Under the pieces are notes generated by a model. It worked only from the letters and a program-made list of their open reading frames with translations, searched no databases and was not told the DNA's origin. DNA of 64,000 nucleotides from Boseongicola sp. SB0665_bin_10 (GTDB taxonomy: Bacteria > Pseudomonadota > Alphaproteobacteria > Rhodobacterales > Rhodobacteraceae), in the NCBI GenBank assembly GCA_009838075.1, contig VXSG01000097.1, positions 1 through 64,000 on the forward strand, in the 5' to 3' direction. The number at the start of each line of letters is the position of its first letter. The stretch's first letter is position 1. A program made the position numbers and the translations under genes. Positions 12,148 to 23,278 of the stretch are shown here, in pieces.

Positions 12148-12292
12148 GACACCTCTCCATGCAAATCTTGGCTGGCGGACGGGTGATAACAATGCCCGTT
12201 CCTGGCTTCAAGGCAACCGCTTGCAGGCGCGAAACGGACACGGCAAGTTGTTGCCGCAGGAGCAAGACCGGAACTCCATAAGGCGCGAGGCA

Positions 12293-13081
12293 ATGAGTCA
12301 GGGTGTCCAGAGCGAGTCGGCTGCCAGCCCGGTTCCGGAAATCGCGGACGTCACGCTGGCCGAGCTTTTCGTGTCGATCAAGGCTGGAGTGCACGATTTC
12401 AGGAGTGCGCCACTGCACGGAATCCTGTTCAGCGGCGTCTATGTCGTCTCAGGATGGCTGCTTGTCTGGCTCGGCGCCGGCACCTTTTTCTGGACTCTCG
12501 CCATTGCGCTCGGCTTTCCGCTGGTTGCTCCCTTTGCCGCCGCGGGACTTTATGAGACAAGCCGCCGGATCGAGGCAGATGAGCCACTGGAATGGGCCGG
12601 AATGCTGACCGTGGTCTGGAAGGAGCGCGGACGGCAGTTGCCTTGGGTGGGCGCGATTCTCGCTTTCGTGTTCCTGTTCTGGAGCATTTTTGCCCATATG
12701 AGTTTCGCGCTGTTTCTCGGTCGCGCGGCCATGACAAATGTCCTGACCTCGTGGGATGTGTACCTGACGCCAACCGGCTTCTCGATGCTGGTGTTCCAAG
12801 GTGTCATTGGCGGCGCAGTCGCATTCCTGACATTCGCGTTGACGGTCGTGTCGCTGCCATTGCTGGTGGACAAGGAGATCGACTTTGTGACGGCAATGCT
12901 GATTAGTGTCAGGACCGTCGCCAGGAACAGGCTGGCCATGTGCGTTTGGGCCGCGATCATTGCCGCCAGCCTGCTTGTCGCGATGCTGCCCCTGTTCTTG
13001 GGGCTTCTCATTGTGTTGCCCGTCCTCGGACATGCAACCTGGCACCTCTACAGACGAGCACTCTACGTTCCGCTGACGTGA
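12293..13081 (+). CDS. DUF2189 family integral membrane protein
   Basis: A 262-residue polytopic membrane protein with about six hydrophobic segments. After a short soluble N-terminus with the motif DVTLAELFVSIKAGVHDFRSAP, it carries AGLYETSRRIEADEPLEW between early helices, both hallmarks of the DUF2189 family. The biochemical function of the family is unknown. ATG at 12293 has GCGAGG just before it; the longer ORF in the track reads through the antisense of prfB and is not real. It diverges from prfB and ends in a strong hairpin. Confidence 0.82.
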   Translation: MSQGVQSESAASPVPEIADVTLAELFVSIKAGVHDFRSAPLHGILFSGVYVVSGWLLVWLGAGTFFWTLAIALGFPLVAPFAAAGLYETSRRIEADEPLEWAGMLTVVWKERGRQLPWVGAILAFVFLFWSIFAHMSFALFLGRAAMTNVLTSWDVYLTPTGFSMLVFQGVIGGAVAFLTFALTVVSLPLLVDKEIDFVTAMLISVRTVARNRLAMCVWAAIIAASLLVAMLPLFLGLLIVLPVLGHATWHLYRRALYVPLT

Positions 13082-13099
13082 CCTCGGCGTCGCGCAGCA

Positions 13100-13118
13100 G
13101 CGGGCCGGACTGGCCCGC
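13100..13118. terminator. 7-bp GC hairpin between convergent genes
   Basis: GCGGGCC-GGACT-GGCCCGC lies 18 bases after the DUF2189 stop and 26 bases before the end of the convergent HNH nuclease gene. No T-run; a bidirectional terminator is plausible. Confidence 0.4.
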
Positions 13119-13143
13119 ATGTGAGTCGCATCGTTCGGGTGCG

Positions 13144-14049
13144 CTACAGTTCGCGCTCGGGTGTTCGGAAGATCGTGTCCCGGTGCCATTCCAGATAGCT
13201 CTTCCTTGGGAGATATTCCGAACTCTGCGGTTTCCTCAGGCTCTTGCCGTGAAATCCGACCAGCCAGTCGACGTTGGTCGATCCCGAGAGGTGCTGGCTG
13301 CAGGCGATGGTGCTTCCGTCGTCCCGGACGGTGAACGCTCCCAAATCGAATGCCTTGTGATGAAGCACGCAGAGCGAAAGGCCGTTCGGGACGTCGTCAG
13401 GCCCGCCGTGCGTGTGCCACTTGATGTGCGCGGCCTCAAGCCCCGCTGGCCGATCCCCGAGCCGCAGGTCGTAGCCGCAGACGCAGCACCGTTTCTCGTA
13501 GGCCATAAGGACCTTTTGGCGGAACTCGGGATCCCGCTTCCTTCTTTCGGCAGTGACCGCTCCGGCAACATGGCTGAGACCGACGTCTTCAAGGATTCCC
13601 TGGTGCAGGGAGTCGGGAAAGTGTTTGTCAAGGAGGCGCCGCGCCACGACTCCCACACTTCTTGAATCGGCCATCAGGACTTGCAGGACGTCGTCCTCGA
13701 ACCCGCCTCTCGCGTGCTTTTCGACCAAGTCGCGCCTGCGCGCGTCGCCTTGGTCATTGGGCAGGATGGGCGGCCCGTCCGCCCTGACCTTCCACAGCCC
13801 GTCGTTCTGGAGTCTCCAGAACGGATATTCCGGTCTGGGATTTGGTGTCCACGGACCATATGCCTTCAGCAGCGCCTTCAACCTGTCGTCCAGGTCATGA
13901 AACGCAACCGCTTCATTGCCTCTGCGCAGTTCGCCAAGAGCCAGCAGGACGAGCAAGGGCTTGTGCGCGGCCGGCTGCTGTCTGGCGACGCCGGACTTGC
14001 CCAACTGGATGTTGTCGAACCTGTCTAGGAGTGAGGCTAGGTCAGTCAT
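13144..14049 (-). CDS. HNH endonuclease with N-terminal sulfur-binding-like domain (putative type IV restriction enzyme)
   Basis: A 301-residue nuclease. The C-terminal half has a full HNH core with zinc-type cysteines: CCVCGYDLR, LEAAHIKWHTHGGPDD, NGLSLCVLHHKAFD. The N-terminal half carries AAHKPLLVLLALGELRRG and PEYPFWRLQNDGLWKV, which I recognise from the sulfur-binding domain of McrA-like enzymes that cleave phosphorothioate-modified DNA. That would make it a defence enzyme against Dnd-type modified DNA. No dnd/ssp genes are in the window. A GTG start at 14061 and an ATG at 14049 are both possible; neither has a clear Shine-Dalgarno. The HNH assignment is firm; the substrate is inference from the domain pair. 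Confidence 0.8.
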   Translation of the reverse strand: MTDLASLLDRFDNIQLGKSGVARQQPAAHKPLLVLLALGELRRGNEAVAFHDLDDRLKALLKAYGPWTPNPRPEYPFWRLQNDGLWKVRADGPPILPNDQGDARRRDLVEKHARGGFEDDVLQVLMADSRSVGVVARRLLDKHFPDSLHQGILEDVGLSHVAGAVTAERRKRDPEFRQKVLMAYEKRCCVCGYDLRLGDRPAGLEAAHIKWHTHGGPDDVPNGLSLCVLHHKAFDLGAFTVRDDGSTIACSQHLSGSTNVDWLVGFHGKSLRKPQSSEYLPRKSYLEWHRDTIFRTPEREL

Positions 14050-14220
14050 GCACGCAAGCACGAAAGCCGCACTTCAATTTGGAGAGATGCACGGCTTCGG
14101 TGCGGACCGGGACAGACAGCCTCACGCCAGAATGCCCCGGCTAAATCAGTCGCTCCTCGAATGACCAAGATTGGGCGCTTCGCTTGGTGAAACGATGTTC
14201 CCGCAATGGTCGGCAATGCG

Positions 14221-15594
14221 TCAATCGTCGTCGTCATCCGCTTCGGGGACAGCCACGAATTCCGGATAGGCCTCTATACCGAGTTCCACGACGTCCTGAC
14301 CCAACTGCTCCGCGCTCGGCGAGACACGCAGTCCGATGAGCCGGTCGATCAGCATCCAGATCACTGTCGAGACGCCAAAGACAAAGACGCCAATCGCAAC
14401 GATGCCGGTCAGCTGCACGAAAAGGTTTCCGCCCGCTGCAAGGCAGACGGCGAGCGTTCCCCAGATGCCGGCGAACAGGTGGGCCGGAATGGCGCCCACG
14501 ACGTCATCGACCCGAACCATCTCCAGCAGCCGGAGTCCCGCAACCGCAATGGCGCCTCCGACCCCGCCAATCAGGATCGCCCATTGGTGGTCGACGAGGT
14601 CCGGCCCGGCGGTGATCGCCACGAGCCCTGCGATCGCTCCGTTCAGCGTTGCCAGAAGGTCCATGCGTCCGAGGATTGGCTTGGACAGAACCAGCGCCGC
14701 CACGACGCCCGCTCCGGCCGCGATGTTGGTGTTGGCGAATATGTTGCTCAGCGCCACCGCGTCCGTTGCCGAATTCAGTGCGAGCTGGGAGCCGCCGTTG
14801 AATCCGAACCAGCCCAGCCAAAGGATGAACACGCCCAGCGTGACGATGGGGACGTTTGAGGGCGGCATCTGCCGAACGGTGCCGTCCTTGCGGAACCGTC
14901 CGCGCCGCGCACCGAGCAGCATGGCGCCGGACAGCGCGGCCCATCCCCCGGTCGAGTGCACGATCGTGGACCCAGCAAAGTCCTGGAAGCCCATTTCGGC
15001 CAGCCAGCCGCCGCCCCAGGTCCATGCGCCCACGATCGGATAGATGACGGCGGTCAGTATCGCCACGAACAGGAAGAACGACCACAGCCGCACGCGCTCG
15101 GCGAGTGTGCCGGAGATGATTGACGCCGTTGTCGCGACAAAGACCATCTGGAAGAACCAGTCCGACATCGTGGCATGTCCGGAGGAATCCGCCAGCAATG
15201 TTTCGCGGGCCTGGTCGATTGCGTCCGGAGCGGCGCTCAGGAGCGCGACCTCGCTGGCCGAGTTGCCGCGGAACAGCGAGAGCGATCCGAAGAAGCCGCC
15301 GTCTACGTCGACATACATGACGTTGTAGCCGATGACGTAGTAGGCCAACCCGGCAATCGAGTAGAGCCCGATGTTCTTCATGCAGATGACGGAGGCGTTC
15401 TTCGTGCGAACGGACCCGGCTTCCAGCATCGTGAAGCCGGCGCACATCCACATGACCAGTGCGCCCCAGATAAGAAACGCAAACGTGTTGAGCACGAATC
15501 CGGTTTCCGCGCCGACCGGCGCCTGCGCCATGGCTGAGGCCGGCAGAAGACCCAGAATCGCTGCGAGTCCCAGAATTTCAATCAGCTTTTGCAT
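14221..15594 (-). CDS. amt: ammonium transporter (Amt/MEP/Rh family)
   Basis: An inner-membrane ammonium channel, 457 residues with 11-12 membrane segments. An N-terminal signal-like segment (LAAILGLLPASAMAQA) precedes the mature N-terminus TGFVLNTFAFLIWGALVMWM. Pore features are present: MCAGFTMLEAG, FAGSTIVHSTGGWAALSGA with the first pore His, and VGAIPAHLFAGIWGTLA with the second. ATG at 15594 begins the signal segment; the ORF opens 15 codons earlier without support. There is no adjacent glnK gene encoding the PII regulator that usually travels with amtB. It diverges from the partner-switching operon. Confidence 0.93.
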   Translation of the reverse strand: MQKLIEILGLAAILGLLPASAMAQAPVGAETGFVLNTFAFLIWGALVMWMCAGFTMLEAGSVRTKNASVICMKNIGLYSIAGLAYYVIGYNVMYVDVDGGFFGSLSLFRGNSASEVALLSAAPDAIDQARETLLADSSGHATMSDWFFQMVFVATTASIISGTLAERVRLWSFFLFVAILTAVIYPIVGAWTWGGGWLAEMGFQDFAGSTIVHSTGGWAALSGAMLLGARRGRFRKDGTVRQMPPSNVPIVTLGVFILWLGWFGFNGGSQLALNSATDAVALSNIFANTNIAAGAGVVAALVLSKPILGRMDLLATLNGAIAGLVAITAGPDLVDHQWAILIGGVGGAIAVAGLRLLEMVRVDDVVGAIPAHLFAGIWGTLAVCLAAGGNLFVQLTGIVAIGVFVFGVSTVIWMLIDRLIGLRVSPSAEQLGQDVVELGIEAYPEFVAVPEADDDDD

Positions 15595-15770: not shown

Positions 15771-15806
15771 TTCATGGCCGCGCAAGTCTTGGGTAAGGAG
15801 ATTGAG

Positions 15807-16160
15807 ATGGATTGCAGAGCCTCGCGGGACGGACACGCTGTGGTCGTCGAAGTCGAAGGACGCATCGACGGTGCCACGGCCGGGGATCTGGAGAATTCTA
15901 TGATGGCCGAAATCGAGGACACGGACAAGGTTGTGGTCTGTGACCTCAACGGCGTTTCATATGTCAGCAGCGCCGGACTCCGGGCAATTCTCGTCGTTGC
16001 CAAGCGACTCTCCAAGCAGGCGGTGGATTTCTCGATCTGCGGGCTCAACGGCCCCGTGGCCGAAGTGTTCCACATTTCCGGATTTGACAGGATTTTCAAG
16101 GTTTACGAAAAGCGCGAAGAGGCACTGGCAGAAGCGACCGCCAATTCAGGACAGGCCTAA
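15807..16160 (+). CDS. STAS-domain anti-sigma factor antagonist (RsbV/SpoIIAA-like)
   Basis: A 117-residue single STAS domain. In partner-switching systems such proteins bind the kinase/anti-sigma factor when unphosphorylated and release its client. The phosphorylation site is conserved: DLNGVSYVSSAGLRAIL, with the Ser before Ala-Gly-Leu as the usual target. The early strand-turn (GHAVVVEVEGRIDGATA) fits the fold. ATG at 15807 is chosen because TAAGGAG lies 6 bases before it; the ORF in the track opens 11 codons earlier. It is first of seven collinear genes and ends one base before the ATPase gene starts. Confidence 0.88.
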   Translation: MDCRASRDGHAVVVEVEGRIDGATAGDLENSMMAEIEDTDKVVVCDLNGVSYVSSAGLRAILVVAKRLSKQAVDFSICGLNGPVAEVFHISGFDRIFKVYEKREEALAEATANSGQA

Positions 16161-16161
16161 A

Positions 16162-16653
16162 ATGTCCAAGGTGGAGCGCCTTGAGATTGACAGCCAGGTC
16201 GAAAACCTCACAAAGATCGAGGCTTGGATAGATTCATTCTGCGAATCTCACTTCCCGGCGGTTGAGTTCAGGCACAAGATGCATCTTGTCATCGAGGAAC
16301 TGTTCATGAACGCCGTCATGCATGGCTACGGAGGAGACCGCAAGGACGGCCCGATCTGGCTTGCCCTGCATCCGTTGCCCGAAGGTGCGGCGCTCGTCAT
16401 AGAGGATGACGCGCCGCCTTTCAATGTCCTTGAGGACGGTCCAGCACCGGATACGCAGTCCGGCGTGGAGGACAGACCGATCGGCGGGCTTGGCATCATG
16501 CTGGTCCGGAACATGGCCGACCACGTAAGCTACGACTACGACAAGCGCAATCGGATCACCACGGTCTTTGGCCGCGGGCCGCCGCCCGGCGGCGGCGCGG
16601 ATATGGACGTGGAAGGATCGGCAGCGGCCGGGCTGCAGGGGTCGTCGCCATGA
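16162..16653 (+). CDS. RsbW/SpoIIAB-like ATP-binding serine kinase / anti-sigma factor
   Basis: A 163-residue GHKL ATPase (HATPase_c_2). The N box EELFMNAVMHGY, the G1 motif in VIEDDAPPFN and the glycine loop GGLGIMLVRNMADHVSYDY are all visible, in the spacing seen in RsbW and SpoIIAB. It should phosphorylate the STAS protein encoded just upstream and hold a client protein, classically a sigma factor. A Gly/Pro-rich tail (GPPPGGGADM) follows the catalytic core. ATG at 16162 is preceded by AGGACAGG; the longer track ORF runs back through the STAS gene. No sigma-factor gene is adjacent. Confidence 0.86.
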   Translation: MSKVERLEIDSQVENLTKIEAWIDSFCESHFPAVEFRHKMHLVIEELFMNAVMHGYGGDRKDGPIWLALHPLPEGAALVIEDDAPPFNVLEDGPAPDTQSGVEDRPIGGLGIMLVRNMADHVSYDYDKRNRITTVFGRGPPPGGGADMDVEGSAAAGLQGSSP

Positions 16654-16680
16654 AGTTCGGCAAGTCAAGGCGGTCAAGAG

Positions 16681-17424
16681 ATGCGACCCGGTAGGCTGAC
16701 GATCCAGTTCATCTTCGTGCTTTGCCTGTTGCCGATCGTCGGGCTGTCGGTTGCGGGCGTTCTGAACTACCTGAAATTCGAGCGACTTCTCACGTCGAAT
16801 GTTGCGGCCCGCTACGACGCCGTGCTGCGCGACCTGGTCTTGGCCATCGGGAACAGCCTCGAGGAGGGGTTGACGCTGGGCACGACGAGATCGACCGAAC
16901 AGTTGATCCAGCGCTCCGTAAGCCAGTTCGAAGGCGCCTTCGACCTTTTCGTGACGGACGTAGATGGCGTGCTGCTCTACACGACCAGGCCATCTGCCGA
17001 GGAACAGGACAACGCCGCGTTCGAAGAAGGGGTTGCGGAGCTTGAGATCCCGACGCCGGGTGACGTCCTGCACACTTTCGGTTCCGGAGAAGGCTTCTCG
17101 GCCCGAATGGCAATCCTGCAGAACGGCAGGCCGGTCGGGACGCTTGTGCTGTCACATGACGGTGGCGATGTCATGGGAGACCTGGACGAGACATCGTTGC
17201 ATCTCGTCAATGCGCTGCTTGGCTCCTTGCTGCCGGTCATTCCGCTCCTGGTTCTCGGAACCGTGGTGGTCCTGGGGCGAATCGAGGGGCAGATCGCGAA
17301 GCGAAGCGAAACCTTGCATCAGGCGAGCGAACCCGAAGCCCCCGAGCCCGCGTCTCCCGACCCGCTCGTGCACGCGGTATGGAAGATCGGGCAGGAGATG
17401 GCCAATGCGCGGAAGGCCGGATGA
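16681..17424 (+). CDS. membrane-anchored sensor-like protein without output domain
   Basis: Not assigned to a named family. It has 247 residues: a membrane segment at about 8-28 (QFIFVLCLLPIVGLSVAGVL), an extracytoplasmic part of about 150 residues with PAS/Cache-like features (FDLFVTDVDGVLLYTT, ARMAILQNGRPVGTLVLS), a second membrane segment at about 178-198, and a roughly 45-residue cytoplasmic tail rich in Glu/Pro. No kinase, cyclase or phosphatase follows, so it would need a partner for signalling. It starts 27 bases after the ATPase gene with AAGGCGG upstream, and its stop is one base before the next ATG. It resembles the N-terminal part of the neighbouring MFS fusion in layout, suggesting a shared role. 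Confidence 0.72.
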   Translation: MRPGRLTIQFIFVLCLLPIVGLSVAGVLNYLKFERLLTSNVAARYDAVLRDLVLAIGNSLEEGLTLGTTRSTEQLIQRSVSQFEGAFDLFVTDVDGVLLYTTRPSAEEQDNAAFEEGVAELEIPTPGDVLHTFGSGEGFSARMAILQNGRPVGTLVLSHDGGDVMGDLDETSLHLVNALLGSLLPVIPLLVLGTVVVLGRIEGQIAKRSETLHQASEPEAPEPASPDPLVHAVWKIGQEMANARKAG

Positions 17425-17425
17425 C

Positions 17426-19576
17426 ATGAAGTCCCGTTTTCTCGCTTTCTTCATGCTGGCCCTGATTCTGCTGACGCTGATTCCGTTTCTGCTGTTCGGG
17501 ATACTGTCGGTTCGCACATTCGAGGCTCGCCTTCTGCCGGAAGTGGAGAACCAGACGATCAATTCCGCTCTGAGCCTCCAGCGACGCCTCAATCTCGCAA
17601 TTGCGTTCTCCGGCGGCTTGGAATCGTTGCGCGGAGTCGAAGAGACGCTTGACGCGACTCGGTCATTTTCGGCAGGCATGGAGTTTCTGGCGTTGACGGA
17701 TCCGGACGGAGAGATTCTCTACCTTTCCGCAAGTGATCCGGACAGCGTTGCCGGAACACTTTCCAAGCTGGCCGATCCGGCCCCGATGGCGATGGCCGAA
17801 CGGCTATTTGGCACATGGGAGAAGGTGACCGGCAGGCCGCTTCTCTCTCCCATCGAGATGTCCGGTCGCCGGATGGGCAACCTGCTCCTGTCCAGCCTGC
17901 CGCTCGGGAGAGACCCCGACAGTCCCGATGGCTTCCTGCATGCAGGTGTCAATATCGAGGTGATCGATGCACTGACGCGTGACATCTGGTTTGACATAGT
18001 CACCGTGGTGATTGCGGTCGCCCTTGTGGCCATCGAGTTCCTGATCCTGATCTACGCCGTACTGATCATCCGCCCTCTCTGGATGATCGAATTCCTCACG
18101 GCCAGGCTGCTGGTCAAGGATCTGCGTTTCGTGCCTGCGTCCCTGTGGGGCGGCGGCATGCAGAAGCTGGTTCGTCGGATCAACGAGGTGATCTGGCGAG
18201 GCGTTGACATCGCCAAGACCCGCGCGGGCGAGATTGGGCTGCTCCTGCCAGGTGCCGACGGCCCCCGACCGATTCGGTCTCCGGCTGTCTCGTACATCCG
18301 CCTTCCCCTTTTCATGTTCTTCCTCTCGGAGGCCATCCTGCGACCGATCCTGCCGCAGTTTCTGGGACAGTTTGCGCCGCCTGACAGCGACCCGGGTCTG
18401 CGGATCGGCCAGATCATGGCCGGTTTCATGGCGGCATCCCTGATTTCAGTGCTTGTCGGCTCGGTTCTCGCGGAGCGTTTCGGCGCCCGACGTGTCTTCT
18501 TCTGGGGCGCCGTCCTGAGCGCCGCCGGCATAGCGGGCCATCTCGCCGCGCAGGGCTTTGCCAGCATCCTGCTATCGAGGTCGCTCACGGGATTCGGCTA
18601 CGGGCTGGTTTACGCTGCGGCGCAGATCTACATCAGCCAGCATGCAAAGCGTGATCGCCGAAGCTCCGGGTTTTCGGTGTTCTTTGCCGTGGTCGTCTCC
18701 GCCGAAATCTGCGGCCCGGCCTTGGGCGGCGTGCTGGCGGACAGGCTTGGCCTGGCTTCCGCACTGGTGGCGGCAACCGTCGTCGCGGCAGTTTCGGCAT
18801 TGCTCTGCATGCTTGTCATCTCCCGCTTGGTGCCGGACCTTACGGATGCTTCGGCCACGCCGGAGGATGTTGCCGAGGCAGAGGCCGAAGACCATGTCAC
18901 GAGACAACTGCCCGGCGTGCAATGGGACGCGTTCCGGACAGTCCTGCTGAATCCGAGATTCATGGTCGCCATGATCTGTTTCGCGATTCCTGCCAAGGCG
19001 CTCCTGACCGGGGGCCTGTTCCTCCTGATGCCGCTGGCGGTCGTGGGGTCGGGAGGCAGCGTCGCGGACAGCGCCCGCGTGCTCATGGCCTATGGCATTG
19101 CCATTCTTCTGCTGGCGCCGATTGTGTCGCCGCTCGCCGATCGCTGGCGAAAGTTCCATCTTTGGGTGGCCGTGGGCTGCGGCGTTGCGGGGATAGGGCT
19201 CGTCCTGCCTCACACGTTGCACACGCTCGGCCACGGAGGATTGATCGTGCTCATGGTCGCCACGTTGCTCTTTGGTGTGGGCCAGACCTTGTCTATCCCG
19301 GCTCAGATCAGCTATCTCATGCATGTGTCCGAGACGAGAGGTCCCAGCACCAGCGCGGGTGCGGTGCTAGGCGTCTTTCGTTTCATCGAGCGCCTGGGTT
19401 CGCTTTTTGGCCCGTTGGTCGCGAGCGGCTTGCTGCTGGCGTCGACACCGGAGGAGGCGCTAATGTTGATGGGCATTGCGGCCGTGCTGCTGATGGCCTG
19501 CGGATTGAGCTGGTATCTGGCATTCGGGGATCAGGAGGAGGGAGATGCGATTCGTGCCTTGCTTTTCGAGACGTGA
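17426..19576 (+). CDS. fusion of extracytoplasmic sensor domain with MFS transporter
   Basis: A 716-residue protein with two parts. Residues 6-28 and 189-217 are membrane segments bracketing about 160 extracytoplasmic residues with a sensor-like FLALTDPDGEILYLSAS; a cytoplasmic linker of about 70 residues follows (RPLWMIEFLTARLLVKDLRF). From residue 287 on there is a complete major-facilitator domain: motif A-like GSVLAERFGARRVFF, a motif C-like GPALGGVLADRLG, and about 12 helices. MFS proteins normally have no such leader, so this may be a transporter used as a sensor or a sensor that controls uptake. ATG at 17426 has GGAAGG before it. Its end overlaps the binding-protein gene by 32 bases. 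Confidence 0.82.
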   Translation: MKSRFLAFFMLALILLTLIPFLLFGILSVRTFEARLLPEVENQTINSALSLQRRLNLAIAFSGGLESLRGVEETLDATRSFSAGMEFLALTDPDGEILYLSASDPDSVAGTLSKLADPAPMAMAERLFGTWEKVTGRPLLSPIEMSGRRMGNLLLSSLPLGRDPDSPDGFLHAGVNIEVIDALTRDIWFDIVTVVIAVALVAIEFLILIYAVLIIRPLWMIEFLTARLLVKDLRFVPASLWGGGMQKLVRRINEVIWRGVDIAKTRAGEIGLLLPGADGPRPIRSPAVSYIRLPLFMFFLSEAILRPILPQFLGQFAPPDSDPGLRIGQIMAGFMAASLISVLVGSVLAERFGARRVFFWGAVLSAAGIAGHLAAQGFASILLSRSLTGFGYGLVYAAAQIYISQHAKRDRRSSGFSVFFAVVVSAEICGPALGGVLADRLGLASALVAATVVAAVSALLCMLVISRLVPDLTDASATPEDVAEAEAEDHVTRQLPGVQWDAFRTVLLNPRFMVAMICFAIPAKALLTGGLFLLMPLAVVGSGGSVADSARVLMAYGIAILLLAPIVSPLADRWRKFHLWVAVGCGVAGIGLVLPHTLHTLGHGGLIVLMVATLLFGVGQTLSIPAQISYLMHVSETRGPSTSAGAVLGVFRFIERLGSLFGPLVASGLLLASTPEEALMLMGIAAVLLMACGLSWYLAFGDQEEGDAIRALLFET

Positions 19577-20585
19577 ACTGATTGTCGGGTCACTGGCCTT
19601 CGGAGTGGCCGGTTCGATGCCCGAACGCCTGCGCGCGGATGCGGCGGGCAAGTCAGTATTCATGGTTCTGTGGCGGGGCGAAACCGAAGTCGAGGAGGGC
19701 TTTCGCGCACATTTCGCCGAAGCCGACGTTCCGATCGATTTCACGATTCGGTCCCTTGACCGGGACGTGAGCAAGCTTCCGTCCATCATCGAGGAGATCC
19801 AGCGCGTCGAGCCCGATCTCGTCTACACCTGGGGCACCTCGGTCACTCTCGGCATTGCCGGCCGGGATCCCGAACTGGCGGAAGGTCCGGACGACTATCC
19901 GCCCATGATTCTCGACCGGCCGGTCCTGTTCACGATGGTGTCGCAGCCCGTACGCTCACGCATCATTGAGGAGTTCGGCCCGACGGGCCGCAACGTGACC
20001 GGCGTCAGTCACATCGTGCCCGTGGAGACGCAGGTCAGCGCGATGATGGCCTACATGCCGGTGGACCGCATCGCGGTCATCTTCACCCCCACGGAGACGA
20101 ATTCCGTGCTGGCCGTGGAACAGCTTGTCGCTCTGGGAGATCGTGAAGGCATCCGGGTCGACGAATTTCCGGTGCCGCTGGACTCCGGGGGCAATCCCAG
20201 CCGGGAGGCCTTGCCGGAGCTGATTGACAAGGCGGCGGACGGCGGGCCGCAATTCCTCTATCTGGGACCTGACAGCTTCGTCGGCGAGCACGCGAAGTAC
20301 ATCACCGGTCTTGCGAATGAGAAGCGGCTCCCCTCCTTTGCCTCGACCGAGCGGATGCTTGCCTCGTCGGACGCTCTGTACGGACTGGTGGCGCCTTACC
20401 GGAAGGTCGGGCGCTTCACGGCCCAGAAGGCGGAGCAAATACTTTGCGGCGAGAAAGCCGTGTCGGACATTCCCGTCGAGGTGATGCCGGAATTCTCGTA
20501 CCAGATCCGGGTGGACGTCGCGCAGTCTCTCAACATCCTGCCCAATCTTTCGCTTCTCGACTACGCGGAAATCATTGGCCAATGA
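19545..20585 (+). CDS. periplasmic substrate-binding protein, PF04392 type (TrpX-like)
   Basis: A 346-residue exported binding protein of the ABC_sub_bind family. An N-terminal SRRELIVGSLAFGVAGS has a twin-arginine-like start and a short hydrophobic core, so export may be by Tat. Domain features include LVYTWGTSVTLGIAGRDP, FTMVSQPVRSRIIEEFGPTGRNVTGVSH and a C-terminal YQIRVDVAQSLNI, all typical of the family. Such proteins usually feed an ABC importer, but no permease or ATPase gene lies nearby; here it sits among signalling genes. ATG at 19545 has an excellent AGGAGGAGGGAG. It overlaps the next gene by 4 bases (ATGA). Confidence 0.82.
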   Translation: MRFVPCFSRRELIVGSLAFGVAGSMPERLRADAAGKSVFMVLWRGETEVEEGFRAHFAEADVPIDFTIRSLDRDVSKLPSIIEEIQRVEPDLVYTWGTSVTLGIAGRDPELAEGPDDYPPMILDRPVLFTMVSQPVRSRIIEEFGPTGRNVTGVSHIVPVETQVSAMMAYMPVDRIAVIFTPTETNSVLAVEQLVALGDREGIRVDEFPVPLDSGGNPSREALPELIDKAADGGPQFLYLGPDSFVGEHAKYITGLANEKRLPSFASTERMLASSDALYGLVAPYRKVGRFTAQKAEQILCGEKAVSDIPVEVMPEFSYQIRVDVAQSLNILPNLSLLDYAEIIGQ

Positions 20586-21328
20586 CCGCGACCCCTCTCC
20601 CAGCGGGCCCAGGCAAGAACGTGGGGAGGGGCAGGCTGAGCGATGTCGCCGGGCGCCGCCTGGACCGGACGGCTCGTGACATCCCTGCCGGCACCGGCCT
20701 GCGGCTTGCCACGATGGAGGACGTTCCGGCGCTGGTGGACATCGTCGACTGGGCGACAAGCCAGACGAAACGGGAGGGCCTGTTCCTGCGCATGTCCGAG
20801 GAATTTCTGGCCAAGTTCGTCAGGGACGGATTCGTGGTTCTTCCGGTGTCGGACAGCAAGATACTCGGATACAGCAACGCGATGCAGGCAAACAGCGACC
20901 ATCCGCCCTTCCTTGACGGGTCGTACAGCCGGGCGCCGGGTCTCCTCTTTGGCACCGTGCTCGGCCCCGAGGCGCGTGCCCAGGGCTGGCACGGCAGGTT
21001 GATCCGGATCCGAATGGACATCTTCCGCGAGGCTGGCATTGATTCCGTGCAATGCACGGTGTCGCCCTACAATCGGGTTTCCCTCGGCAACCTTCTGGCT
21101 GCCGGTTTCCGCGCCTACGGATTGAAGGACTTGCTTGACGGACATCCTCGATTTCTGCTTCGGCATGACTTTGAACAAGAGGCGATGCCGGGCCCGTATT
21201 GCAAGCTGGCACTGCCGGAGTCAGGAAGCGTGGCAGACCACGGGGCGTTGCTGGCGGACGGCTATGTCGGCGTGAGCCTGGAACGGGGCGAGACCAACGC
21301 CCTGTGCTACGTGGCGGGATCCGGGTAG
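20582..21328 (+). CDS. GNAT-fold acetyltransferase-like protein
   Basis: A 248-residue protein with a GNAT fold: GLRLATMEDVPALVDIVDWA at the start of the domain (residues about 38-57), the central LLFGTVLGPEARAQGWHGRLIRIRM, where the Gly-rich acetyl-CoA loop should be (here GPEARAQGWHG, close to the Q/RxxGxG/A pattern), and VQCTVSPYNRVSLGNLLAAGFR, the usual NxxxxxLYxxxGF-type end. The acceptor is unknown. It is translationally coupled to the binding-protein gene by ATGA, placing it firmly in the signalling operon. The longer track ORF reads through the previous gene and is rejected. Confidence 0.75.
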   Translation: MTATPLPAGPGKNVGRGRLSDVAGRRLDRTARDIPAGTGLRLATMEDVPALVDIVDWATSQTKREGLFLRMSEEFLAKFVRDGFVVLPVSDSKILGYSNAMQANSDHPPFLDGSYSRAPGLLFGTVLGPEARAQGWHGRLIRIRMDIFREAGIDSVQCTVSPYNRVSLGNLLAAGFRAYGLKDLLDGHPRFLLRHDFEQEAMPGPYCKLALPESGSVADHGALLADGYVGVSLERGETNALCYVAGSG

Positions 21329-21355
21329 GGTCGCGGGGGTCGATGGTTCGGAGAG

Positions 21356-23278
21356 ATGACGGCAAGCTCCACAAAGCACGGAACCCGGAAGGGGCGAAGC
21401 CTGCGGCGCGGGATCACCATGATTGCTGCCGCCGCCCTGGTGGCAGTATCGGGAATCATCATCGCCTACGCGGAATTCCGCAATGACCTGGTGAGCCGGA
21501 GATACGAGTCGTCTTGGATCGAAGTGCAGTCGGATTTGCTCGACACGATGCTGGAACTCTATCGCGGGCGCCTGGGAGACGTCTCAAGGACGGTTGTCCT
21601 GGATGCCGAGATTGACGCAGCGCTGAGAAACGGCAGCTCGGATGATCTCAACAGGATGCTCGAGCAAGTCAGGAACACGGTGCGTGCACGGCCTGAGTTC
21701 GCCGTGCTTTCCGCCTCGGGGCAGATTCTGGCCACCACGGGCGACGAGGCCGGACTGGTTGAATCGGGCGCGGTCGAGGAAAGGGCCACAGATGCCATCC
21801 GAAACCGCATCATCGTCGCTCCAAGCGGCTCGCCGTTCCTGGTGCATTATTCGCCGGTACGGCGCGGCGACGTCGTCGTGGCGCAGGTCGTGGCGTATCT
21901 TGAAATCAGTGACGGGATCTCGTTCTTTTTTCCGGACCTGATCGGGCTGGCGCTTTCACAACCAAAGGGCGGGCTGCTCGGGCTTGCGGGAGATGTGCCG
22001 GAACTCGAATCCGCCCTTCCGGAACCCGATGGACAGGCACGGCATCAGATCATGTCCAGCTCGGATGGCAGGCGTTTCGACGTGGCGACCCTGCCGCTCA
22101 GGGACGAGGACGGAAACTTCTCCGGCGAACTCGTTCTCCTGAGGGACATCTCTGACGCGCTGGAGCGCGAGGAAGTTCTTGCCACGCTGGCGTTCTCGTC
22201 GGTGCTGGTCATAGTTCTCCTGTCGCTTGGGCTGCTTGCTCGGGCGCTTCGCCTTGGATTTCGGCCCTTGGGGGCAGTGGTGTACCTGCTCGATGCCATG
22301 GCGCGCGGCGAAACCGGCCTGCGCATGCGAAACGTCGAGCCGCCTCCGGAGCCCGAGAGTGACGTCGAAGGGGTGCCTGAACGGTTCGCGTACCACAGTG
22401 TCGCCAGGAAAGACCAAGAGCCCGACAGTTCCGGCTCGACGAGTCTCGCCCAGCGGTCGGTGGCGGAAATTGATACGCTTCTTGACACGGTGGAGCGGTT
22501 CCGTGCCAGCATAGACGCTCGTAATGCCTTGATCGCCGTGCAGGAGCAGCTCGAGAGCGCAAGGCGAATTCAGCAATCGCTGCTTCCTGAGGATTTTGAC
22601 CTGCATCCCGGTCTCGACTTCAGCGGGCGGATGCGTGCCGCCCAGGATGTCGGCGGGGACTTTTTCGACGCGTTTCCGGTGGACGACGGCCGCGTAGCGG
22701 CAGTGATCGCGGACGTGTCCGGCAAGGGCATCGCCGCGGCGCTCTTTGCCGCGCAGGCAAGTGTTGTTCTGCGGTCGCATTGCCAAACGCCAGAAAACCT
22801 GCCCGTGCAGATACAGGCGGCGAACAACGCGCTCTGCCAACGCAACCCCGAAGAGATGTTCCTTACCGCGATCGTGGCCTTCATCACGCCGCGAACTGGT
22901 GAGGTTGCCTTCGTCAATGCGGGCCACTGTCCACCTATGATCGCCGGCATTGACGGGAAGGTCAGACTTGAAATGCGGCCGCCAAATCTCGTGCTCGGGG
23001 TCCTGCCGGACGTGGACTGGTCGCTGCATCACCTGACCTTGGGTCCCGGGGAGAGCCTGCTATTTCACAGCGACGGATTCGACGAGGCACAGACAAAGGA
23101 AGGCGAGATACTGGGCCGGGACAAGTCAATGGAGATTTTTGGCAAGGTGATTGGCGAGGCTGAGAGCCAAGATTGCGCGGCCGTGTCGGAACGCATTCTT
23201 GAAGAGATCGACCAGTTTGCCGGGGACGCGCCGCAGGCCGACGACATCACGCTGATTACGATGAAACTGGTTGACTGA
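21356..23278 (+). CDS. membrane-bound SpoIIE/RsbU-type PP2C serine phosphatase with extracytoplasmic sensor
   Basis: A 640-residue phosphatase likely to dephosphorylate the STAS antagonist. A membrane segment at about 20-38, an extracytoplasmic region of about 235 residues (with FAVLSASGQILATTGDEAG, sensor-like), and a second membrane segment at about 276-298 lead to a linker and coiled coil (ALIAVQEQLESARRIQQSLLP). The PP2C domain from about 410 on has the metal-site Asp residues in AAQDVGGDFFDAF, VIADVSGKGIAAALFAAQA, FHSDGFDEAQ and QADDITLI. It is last in the operon, 27 bases after the GNAT gene. ATG at 21356 has a close GGAGAG, so a slightly different start is possible. Confidence 0.9.
   Translation: MTASSTKHGTRKGRSLRRGITMIAAAALVAVSGIIIAYAEFRNDLVSRRYESSWIEVQSDLLDTMLELYRGRLGDVSRTVVLDAEIDAALRNGSSDDLNRMLEQVRNTVRARPEFAVLSASGQILATTGDEAGLVESGAVEERATDAIRNRIIVAPSGSPFLVHYSPVRRGDVVVAQVVAYLEISDGISFFFPDLIGLALSQPKGGLLGLAGDVPELESALPEPDGQARHQIMSSSDGRRFDVATLPLRDEDGNFSGELVLLRDISDALEREEVLATLAFSSVLVIVLLSLGLLARALRLGFRPLGAVVYLLDAMARGETGLRMRNVEPPPEPESDVEGVPERFAYHSVARKDQEPDSSGSTSLAQRSVAEIDTLLDTVERFRASIDARNALIAVQEQLESARRIQQSLLPEDFDLHPGLDFSGRMRAAQDVGGDFFDAFPVDDGRVAAVIADVSGKGIAAALFAAQASVVLRSHCQTPENLPVQIQAANNALCQRNPEEMFLTAIVAFITPRTGEVAFVNAGHCPPMIAGIDGKVRLEMRPPNLVLGVLPDVDWSLHHLTLGPGESLLFHSDGFDEAQTKEGEILGRDKSMEIFGKVIGEAESQDCAAVSERILEEIDQFAGDAPQADDITLITMKLVD

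Follow-up and report, generated by a model that had tools for sequence, protein, structure and literature searches.

An HNH nuclease gene whose product appears to carry a reader domain for phosphorothioate (PT) DNA, found where no genes for writing that mark are in view, raises the question of what the enzyme would act on. The gene lies within a 64,000-nucleotide stretch of Boseongicola sp. SB0665_bin_10, referred to here as the window. A preliminary description had proposed that the nuclease is an orphan that attacks incoming PT-DNA. We therefore examined the protein, its host, its chromosomal slot and its relatives.

Identity and architecture of the nuclease

The gene is an intact open reading frame on the reverse strand, running from an ATG at 14049 to a stop codon at 13144-13146 and encoding 301 aa. 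An alternative GTG start is possible at 14061; both orthologues, from two congeners, start at the ATG-equivalent position and begin MTDLKLLLDRF and MADLTSLLDRF, in agreement with the ATG at 14049. Residues 23-295 matched the NCBIfam model NF045808, "phosphorothioated DNA-binding restriction endonuclease", with 297.2 bits (E 9.9e-89) against a curated cut-off of 180 bits. A Pfam scan returned only HNH_2 (PF13391; 42 bits vs a cut-off of 21, E 8.7e-11), and PADLOC returned generic HNH and type IV restriction endonuclease models.

Table 1. Features of the window discussed in the text.
Feature	Positions	Strand	Basis or remark
SBD-HNH PT-dependent restriction endonuclease gene (predicted), 301 aa + stop	13144..14049	-	NF045808; 37-87% identity to family members
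Sulfur-binding domain (SBD), residues 21-158; pocket H29, K30, Y75, P76, R79; candidate base-reading motif Q100-G101-D102	13576..13989	-	phmmer, Foldseek
HNH core, residues 188-241; C188xxC191 + C227xxH230 (zinc), H208/N222/H231 (catalytic HNH); roles inferred	13327..13488	-	PF13391
Segment replaced by ~63 bp in a congener (empty slot)	13161..14125	.	blastn
STAS anti-sigma-antagonist	15774-16160		part of partner-switching-like set
SpoIIE-like phosphatase	21356-23278		part of partner-switching-like set

The two N-terminal blocks on which the preliminary description relied, HKPLLVLLALG (residues 29-39) and YPFWRLQNDGLW (residues 75-86), are both present in the protein. In a phmmer search of the PDB, residues 21-158 matched the SBD chain of SprMcrA, 7cc9 (1.5e-12), and also ScoMcrA, 5zmm, and in a profile of 46 rows the N-terminus matched SBD structures only. 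Structure prediction, which had been suggested as a check, pointed the same way: the eleven best Foldseek matches of the AlphaFold2 model (mean pLDDT 87.4, pTM 0.74) were all SprMcrA or ScoMcrA structures, among them 7cc9_B (5.1e-08) and 5zmo_A (7.4e-07), with target-normalized TM-scores of 0.74 and 0.80; normalized to the isolated SBD chains, scores across the eleven ranged from 0.71 to 0.80. The sulfur-binding reading was thus upheld by the NF045808 profile, the PDB sequence search and the predicted structure.

The SBD pocket motifs (HK/HR and YP) are present as H29-K30-P31 and Y75-P76-F77, and H29, K30 and P76 are invariant across 46 homologues, the window protein included. The sulfur cavity of SprMcrA consists of Y31, Q32, Y78, P79 and A82 (PMC7470945) and that of ScoMcrA of H116, R117, Y164, P165 and A168 (PMC6224610); the alignment sets H29, K30, Y75, P76 and R79 of the window protein opposite these residues. 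The substitutions at K30 and R79 are of a tolerated kind, since the ScoMcrA mutants R117K and A168R still bound PT-DNA (PMC6224610). The base-contact motif of SprMcrA, HGD (102-104), aligns with QGD (100-102). The family consensus RAPHKPLL becomes PAAHKPLL in the window protein, or TAAHKPLL within its small clade, and with the arginine of RAPHK replaced, affinity or specificity may differ.

The HNH core had been called intact, and it is: PF13391 was matched, and the HNH and zinc residues C188, C191, H208, N222, C227, H230 and H231 are kept and invariant in the 46-row alignment that includes the window protein. The HNH half matched TagI in the phmmer search, and the C-terminal profile matched modification-dependent HNH enzymes in the PDB, together with a weak IscB match. 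By sequence and model, the protein is predicted to be an EcoWI/SprMcrA-type SBD-HNH, PT-dependent (type IV/IIM) restriction enzyme. It is an ordinary intact member of an enzyme family already known, and the preliminary description had identified it rightly.

Writers in the host and history of the slot

A tblastn search with ten Dnd and Ssp proteins gave no match in the window, bearing out the statement that modification genes are missing from it. The host genome is a 4.80-Mb draft in 124 contigs, 98.63% complete with 3.53% contamination. The absence of dnd genes predicted for it was borne out as well: family searches of this 98.63% complete draft found no match to DndC, none over the cut-off to DndD, and no SspB/DUF4007, so that ssp is absent too. 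The same searches of the two congeners that carry an orthologue likewise found no DndC, DndD (over the cut-off) or SspB. The window gene is a true orphan with no cognate writer, an absence that in a 124-contig draft is not absolute. NF045808 also matched, more weakly, a second site in the host (C24:34755-35132, in a 366-aa open reading frame), which was rejected as a PT enzyme; the match covers positions 157-284, the HNH half only, and Pfam finds HNH_2 alone.

The gene sits in housekeeping surroundings, flanked by an Amt-type ammonium transporter on one side and, on the other, a BPSS1780-like membrane protein that adjoins prfB. In one congener (G003) the orthologue lies between the same neighbors, and in another (G005), at the end of a contig, it adjoins this membrane protein. 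When positions 12290-15000 of the window were compared by blastn with the corresponding locus of congener G007 (L113), matches stopped at 13160 and restarted at 14126, with ~63 bp in between, so that the slot is empty there. Congener G001 keeps a 3-prime remnant (homology to 13201), consistent with a deletion, and the gene was apparently lost there in that way. Between orthologues dN/dS was 0.14-0.23, with dS of 0.47-0.55, about twice that of neighboring genes (0.21-0.25). The gene evolves under purifying selection, in a slot subject to gain and loss of the kind common for defence genes. Three congeners (G001, G002 and G007) have other SBD-HNH genes, ~38% identical, at other loci.

An origin from a mobile element or phage was considered and rejected: the gene is not bordered by convincing direct or inverted repeats, its GC content is like that of the flanks, phage records held no close homologue, and plasmid homologues were all less than 60% identical. 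In a further congener (G006; L114, C182) homology to the window ends shortly past the membrane-protein gene, from about 2311 onward, and gives way to unrelated sequence, apparently ATPase-encoding, which may mark the slot as a small hot spot for integration. Near the SBD-HNH gene, positions 15774-23278 of the window hold a partner-switching-like set in an alphaproteobacterium. Silicimonas and Boseongicola MAGs are the nearest named relatives (Rhodobacteraceae/Paracoccaceae branch). The closest relative outside the alphaproteobacteria, at 50% identity, is in a gammaproteobacterial MAG (L018) from sample series jk18x22, the same series as an 87% relative (L016), which suggests exchange inside one microbial community.

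Writers among other carriers of SBD-HNH genes

Dnd genes in the same genome had been named as a finding that would refute an anti-PT role. This proves a weak, non-diagnostic criterion, as other family members co-reside with dnd or ssp writers. Published work already lists SBD-HNH enzymes co-occurring with writers (PMC7461809); Lutz et al. put the share of such enzymes with a possible dnd-cluster association below 3.6%, and proposed that these cases reflect inactivity or a mismatch of motifs (PMC7461809).

Among alphaproteobacterial SBD-HNH carriers, 5 of 9 had writers, compared with 15 of 385 sampled genomes. One (G002; L103, C89:7084-19617) has a complete dndABCDE set with a Dnd-type restriction helicase, and an SBD-HNH gene whose core is apparently intact and whose 5-prime end is cut off by a contig end. 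The others are G021, with dndC and dndD over the cut-off; G426, with DndC over the cut-off; G184, with SspB; and G007, in which a single 22-kb contig carries both the SBD-HNH gene and an Ssp-like cluster of DUF4007, a large ATPase and a PAPS reductase. On that contig a few kb separate the SBD-HNH gene from the cluster and from a DndB-like gene (L100, G007:C46, 4256-14326). Within the draw of 385 alphaproteobacterial genomes, DndC exceeded the cut-off in 8 and SspB was found in 7, with no overlap; in this draw alone, 2 of 3 carriers had writers vs 13 of 382 non-carriers (Fisher p = 0.004). The nine-genome comparison gives a smaller p, from genomes that are related and were chosen for carrying SBD-HNH. 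Out of 50 carriers from many phyla, DndC was over the cut-off in 6 and SspB was found in 9, together in 13 distinct genomes; compared with a draw of Desulfobacteria, in which 24 of 192 had writers, p was 0.02, for groups that are taxonomically unmatched and with some of the 192 themselves carriers. Writers are not depleted among SBD-HNH carriers. Defence genes generally cluster, and many of the genomes compared are MAGs, so the enrichment of writers is suggestive, not proven.

We also surveyed 80 SBD-HNH loci for linkage, up to 6 kb on each side. Writer-like genes were nearby in six (L023, L042, L043, L046, L084 and L086) and weakly in L020, whose Ssp-like matches have broken frames; SspC/SspD matches in L036 were not counted, as the gene order was unlinked. 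In Poribacteria (L084; 1269-6927) the order is SspC-SspD, 4 bp, SBD-HNH, then a TIR protein, with SspB short or broken, and in Thiotrichaceae (L086; 5974-12709) it is SBD-HNH, 6 bp, SspD-SspB-SspC. The SBD-HNH genes of these two distant loci lie within tight apparent ssp operons, and that of L046 is beside dndBCDE. In three planctomycete loci (L042:3093-5156, L043:5944-9753 and L046:5084-6888) two HKPLL-type (SBD-like) genes stand close together beside Dnd genes, and the second such protein in L046 has an HNH_2 domain. On a tree of 58 proteins the writer-associated members clustered (8 changes vs 15.6 in shuffles), and the window gene formed a writer-free clade of starred support with its orthologues in G003 and G005 and a gammaproteobacterial MAG.

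These writer-linked relatives, a surprise from outside the window, are worth following: co-residence, including the apparent ssp operons, makes the question of how cutter and writer share a cell directly testable, and motif mismatch is one simple answer. The Ssp mark is CpsCA, reportedly not a target of the SprMcrA SBD (PMC9521924), and such a mismatch could explain peaceful coexistence with Ssp. A tentative reading, which we consider rather unlikely, is that across the family SBD-HNH is not simply an enemy of PT. Linked to Ssp or Dnd writers in Poribacteria, Thiotrichaceae, Caldilineaceae (L023), Planctomycetes and the alphaproteobacterium G007, sometimes within a single apparent operon, it may serve PT-based defence as a further kind of effector module, or it may be a compatible reader whose PT motif is a different one. 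The window gene would in that case represent an orphan branch of the wider family.

Proposed role and comparison with named systems

The role that we consider very probable is that of a stand-alone PT-dependent (type IV/IIM-like) restriction endonuclease in a writer-free host, acting against incoming PT-modified DNA. Alternatively, it could supply the nuclease activity of a PT-based self/non-self system, as SspE or DndI do, with the PT writer either lost or hidden in sequence that the assembly lacks. Members in tight apparent ssp operons (L084, L086) or beside dndBCDE (L046), and the over-representation of PT writers in carriers, speak for this. Yet DndC, DndD (over the cut-off) and SspB were not found in the host at 98.6% completeness, nor in G003 and G005, the clade is writer-free in the tree and the neighbors are housekeeping genes, which together make a missing writer improbable.

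Still less probable is an HNH enzyme that reads another mark, such as 5mC or 5hmC. Its HNH half does resemble those of the modification-dependent TagI and VcaM4I, and ScoMcrA has both SBD and SRA domains, but the window protein is without SRA, and its one reader domain, in which the sulfur-pocket residues are conserved, matches SBD structures. We give just as little credence to a decaying or inactive relic with no current function. Such decay would fit the gain and loss at the slot within the genus (empty in G007, a 3-prime remnant only in G001) and a dS about twice that of neighboring genes, but not an intact frame in which all catalytic and pocket residues are kept and dN/dS is 0.14-0.23.

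The anti-PT role builds on domain architecture, residue conservation, predicted fold, purifying selection and writer absence, all computed directly; binding, cleavage offset, dimerization and biological role we infer from the characterized relatives EcoWI, SprMcrA and ScoMcrA. The N-terminal wHTH-like SBD would hold the Rp sulfur of a phosphorothioate in the backbone within the cavity formed by H29, K30, Y75, P76 and R79, while the loop with QGD 100-102 would read neighboring bases. Cleavage by the zinc-stabilized C-terminal HNH domain would follow, a little way outside the modified site; the enzyme probably cuts as a dimer that uses a divalent metal. Since no Dnd/Ssp writer is detectable in the host, its own DNA would be unmarked, and the enzyme would act on incoming PT-modified plasmids, genomic islands and dnd-carrying conjugating elements. 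Characterized SBD-HNH enzymes restrict dnd+ plasmids, and some assayed family members are weak or require Mn2+ (PMC7461809). For a recipient, a barrier against PT-marked DNA is reasonable because close relatives carry PT writers; given the frequent writers beside family members elsewhere, pure anti-PT defence is possibly not the sole role. With this gene the Rhodobacteraceae/Paracoccaceae branch gains a clean example of an orphan PT-dependent restriction enzyme.

Among named systems, SspE and DndI share with this family the sensing of backbone phosphorothioate and a nuclease domain, and are DUF262 + DUF1524 proteins coupled to a writer (PMC11662687); the Pfam scan of the window protein found neither DUF262 nor DUF1524, and its host is without a writer. 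TagI and VcaM4I, modification-dependent HNH enzymes, have a similar HNH half. Their reader domain and mark differ from those of the PT-reading SBD. The pocket is that of ScoMcrA (Streptomyces coelicolor, PDB 5ZMM/5ZMO), with H116, R117, Y164 and P165 corresponding to H29, K30, Y75 and P76. In ScoMcrA an SRA domain separates the SBD from the HNH, whereas the Pfam scan of the window protein gave HNH_2 only and no SRA; its SBD extends to ~158 and its HNH starts at 188, and therefore there is no room for one. With EcoWI and the other members of NF045808 the protein shares nearly its whole length, an N-terminal SBD and C-terminal HNH, CxxC/CxxH and the HK and YP motifs, but it is only ~35% identical to the enterobacterial plasmid members bearing that annotation, and its pocket has PAAHK instead of RAPHK. 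It differs from SprMcrA (Streptomyces pristinaespiralis, PDB 7CC9/7CCD/7CCJ) in H29-K30 vs Y31-Q32, R79 vs A82, N82 vs the phosphate-contacting R85, and fewer arginines in the loop preceding YP, yet the two have the same SBD-HNH architecture, and SprMcrA is its best structural match.
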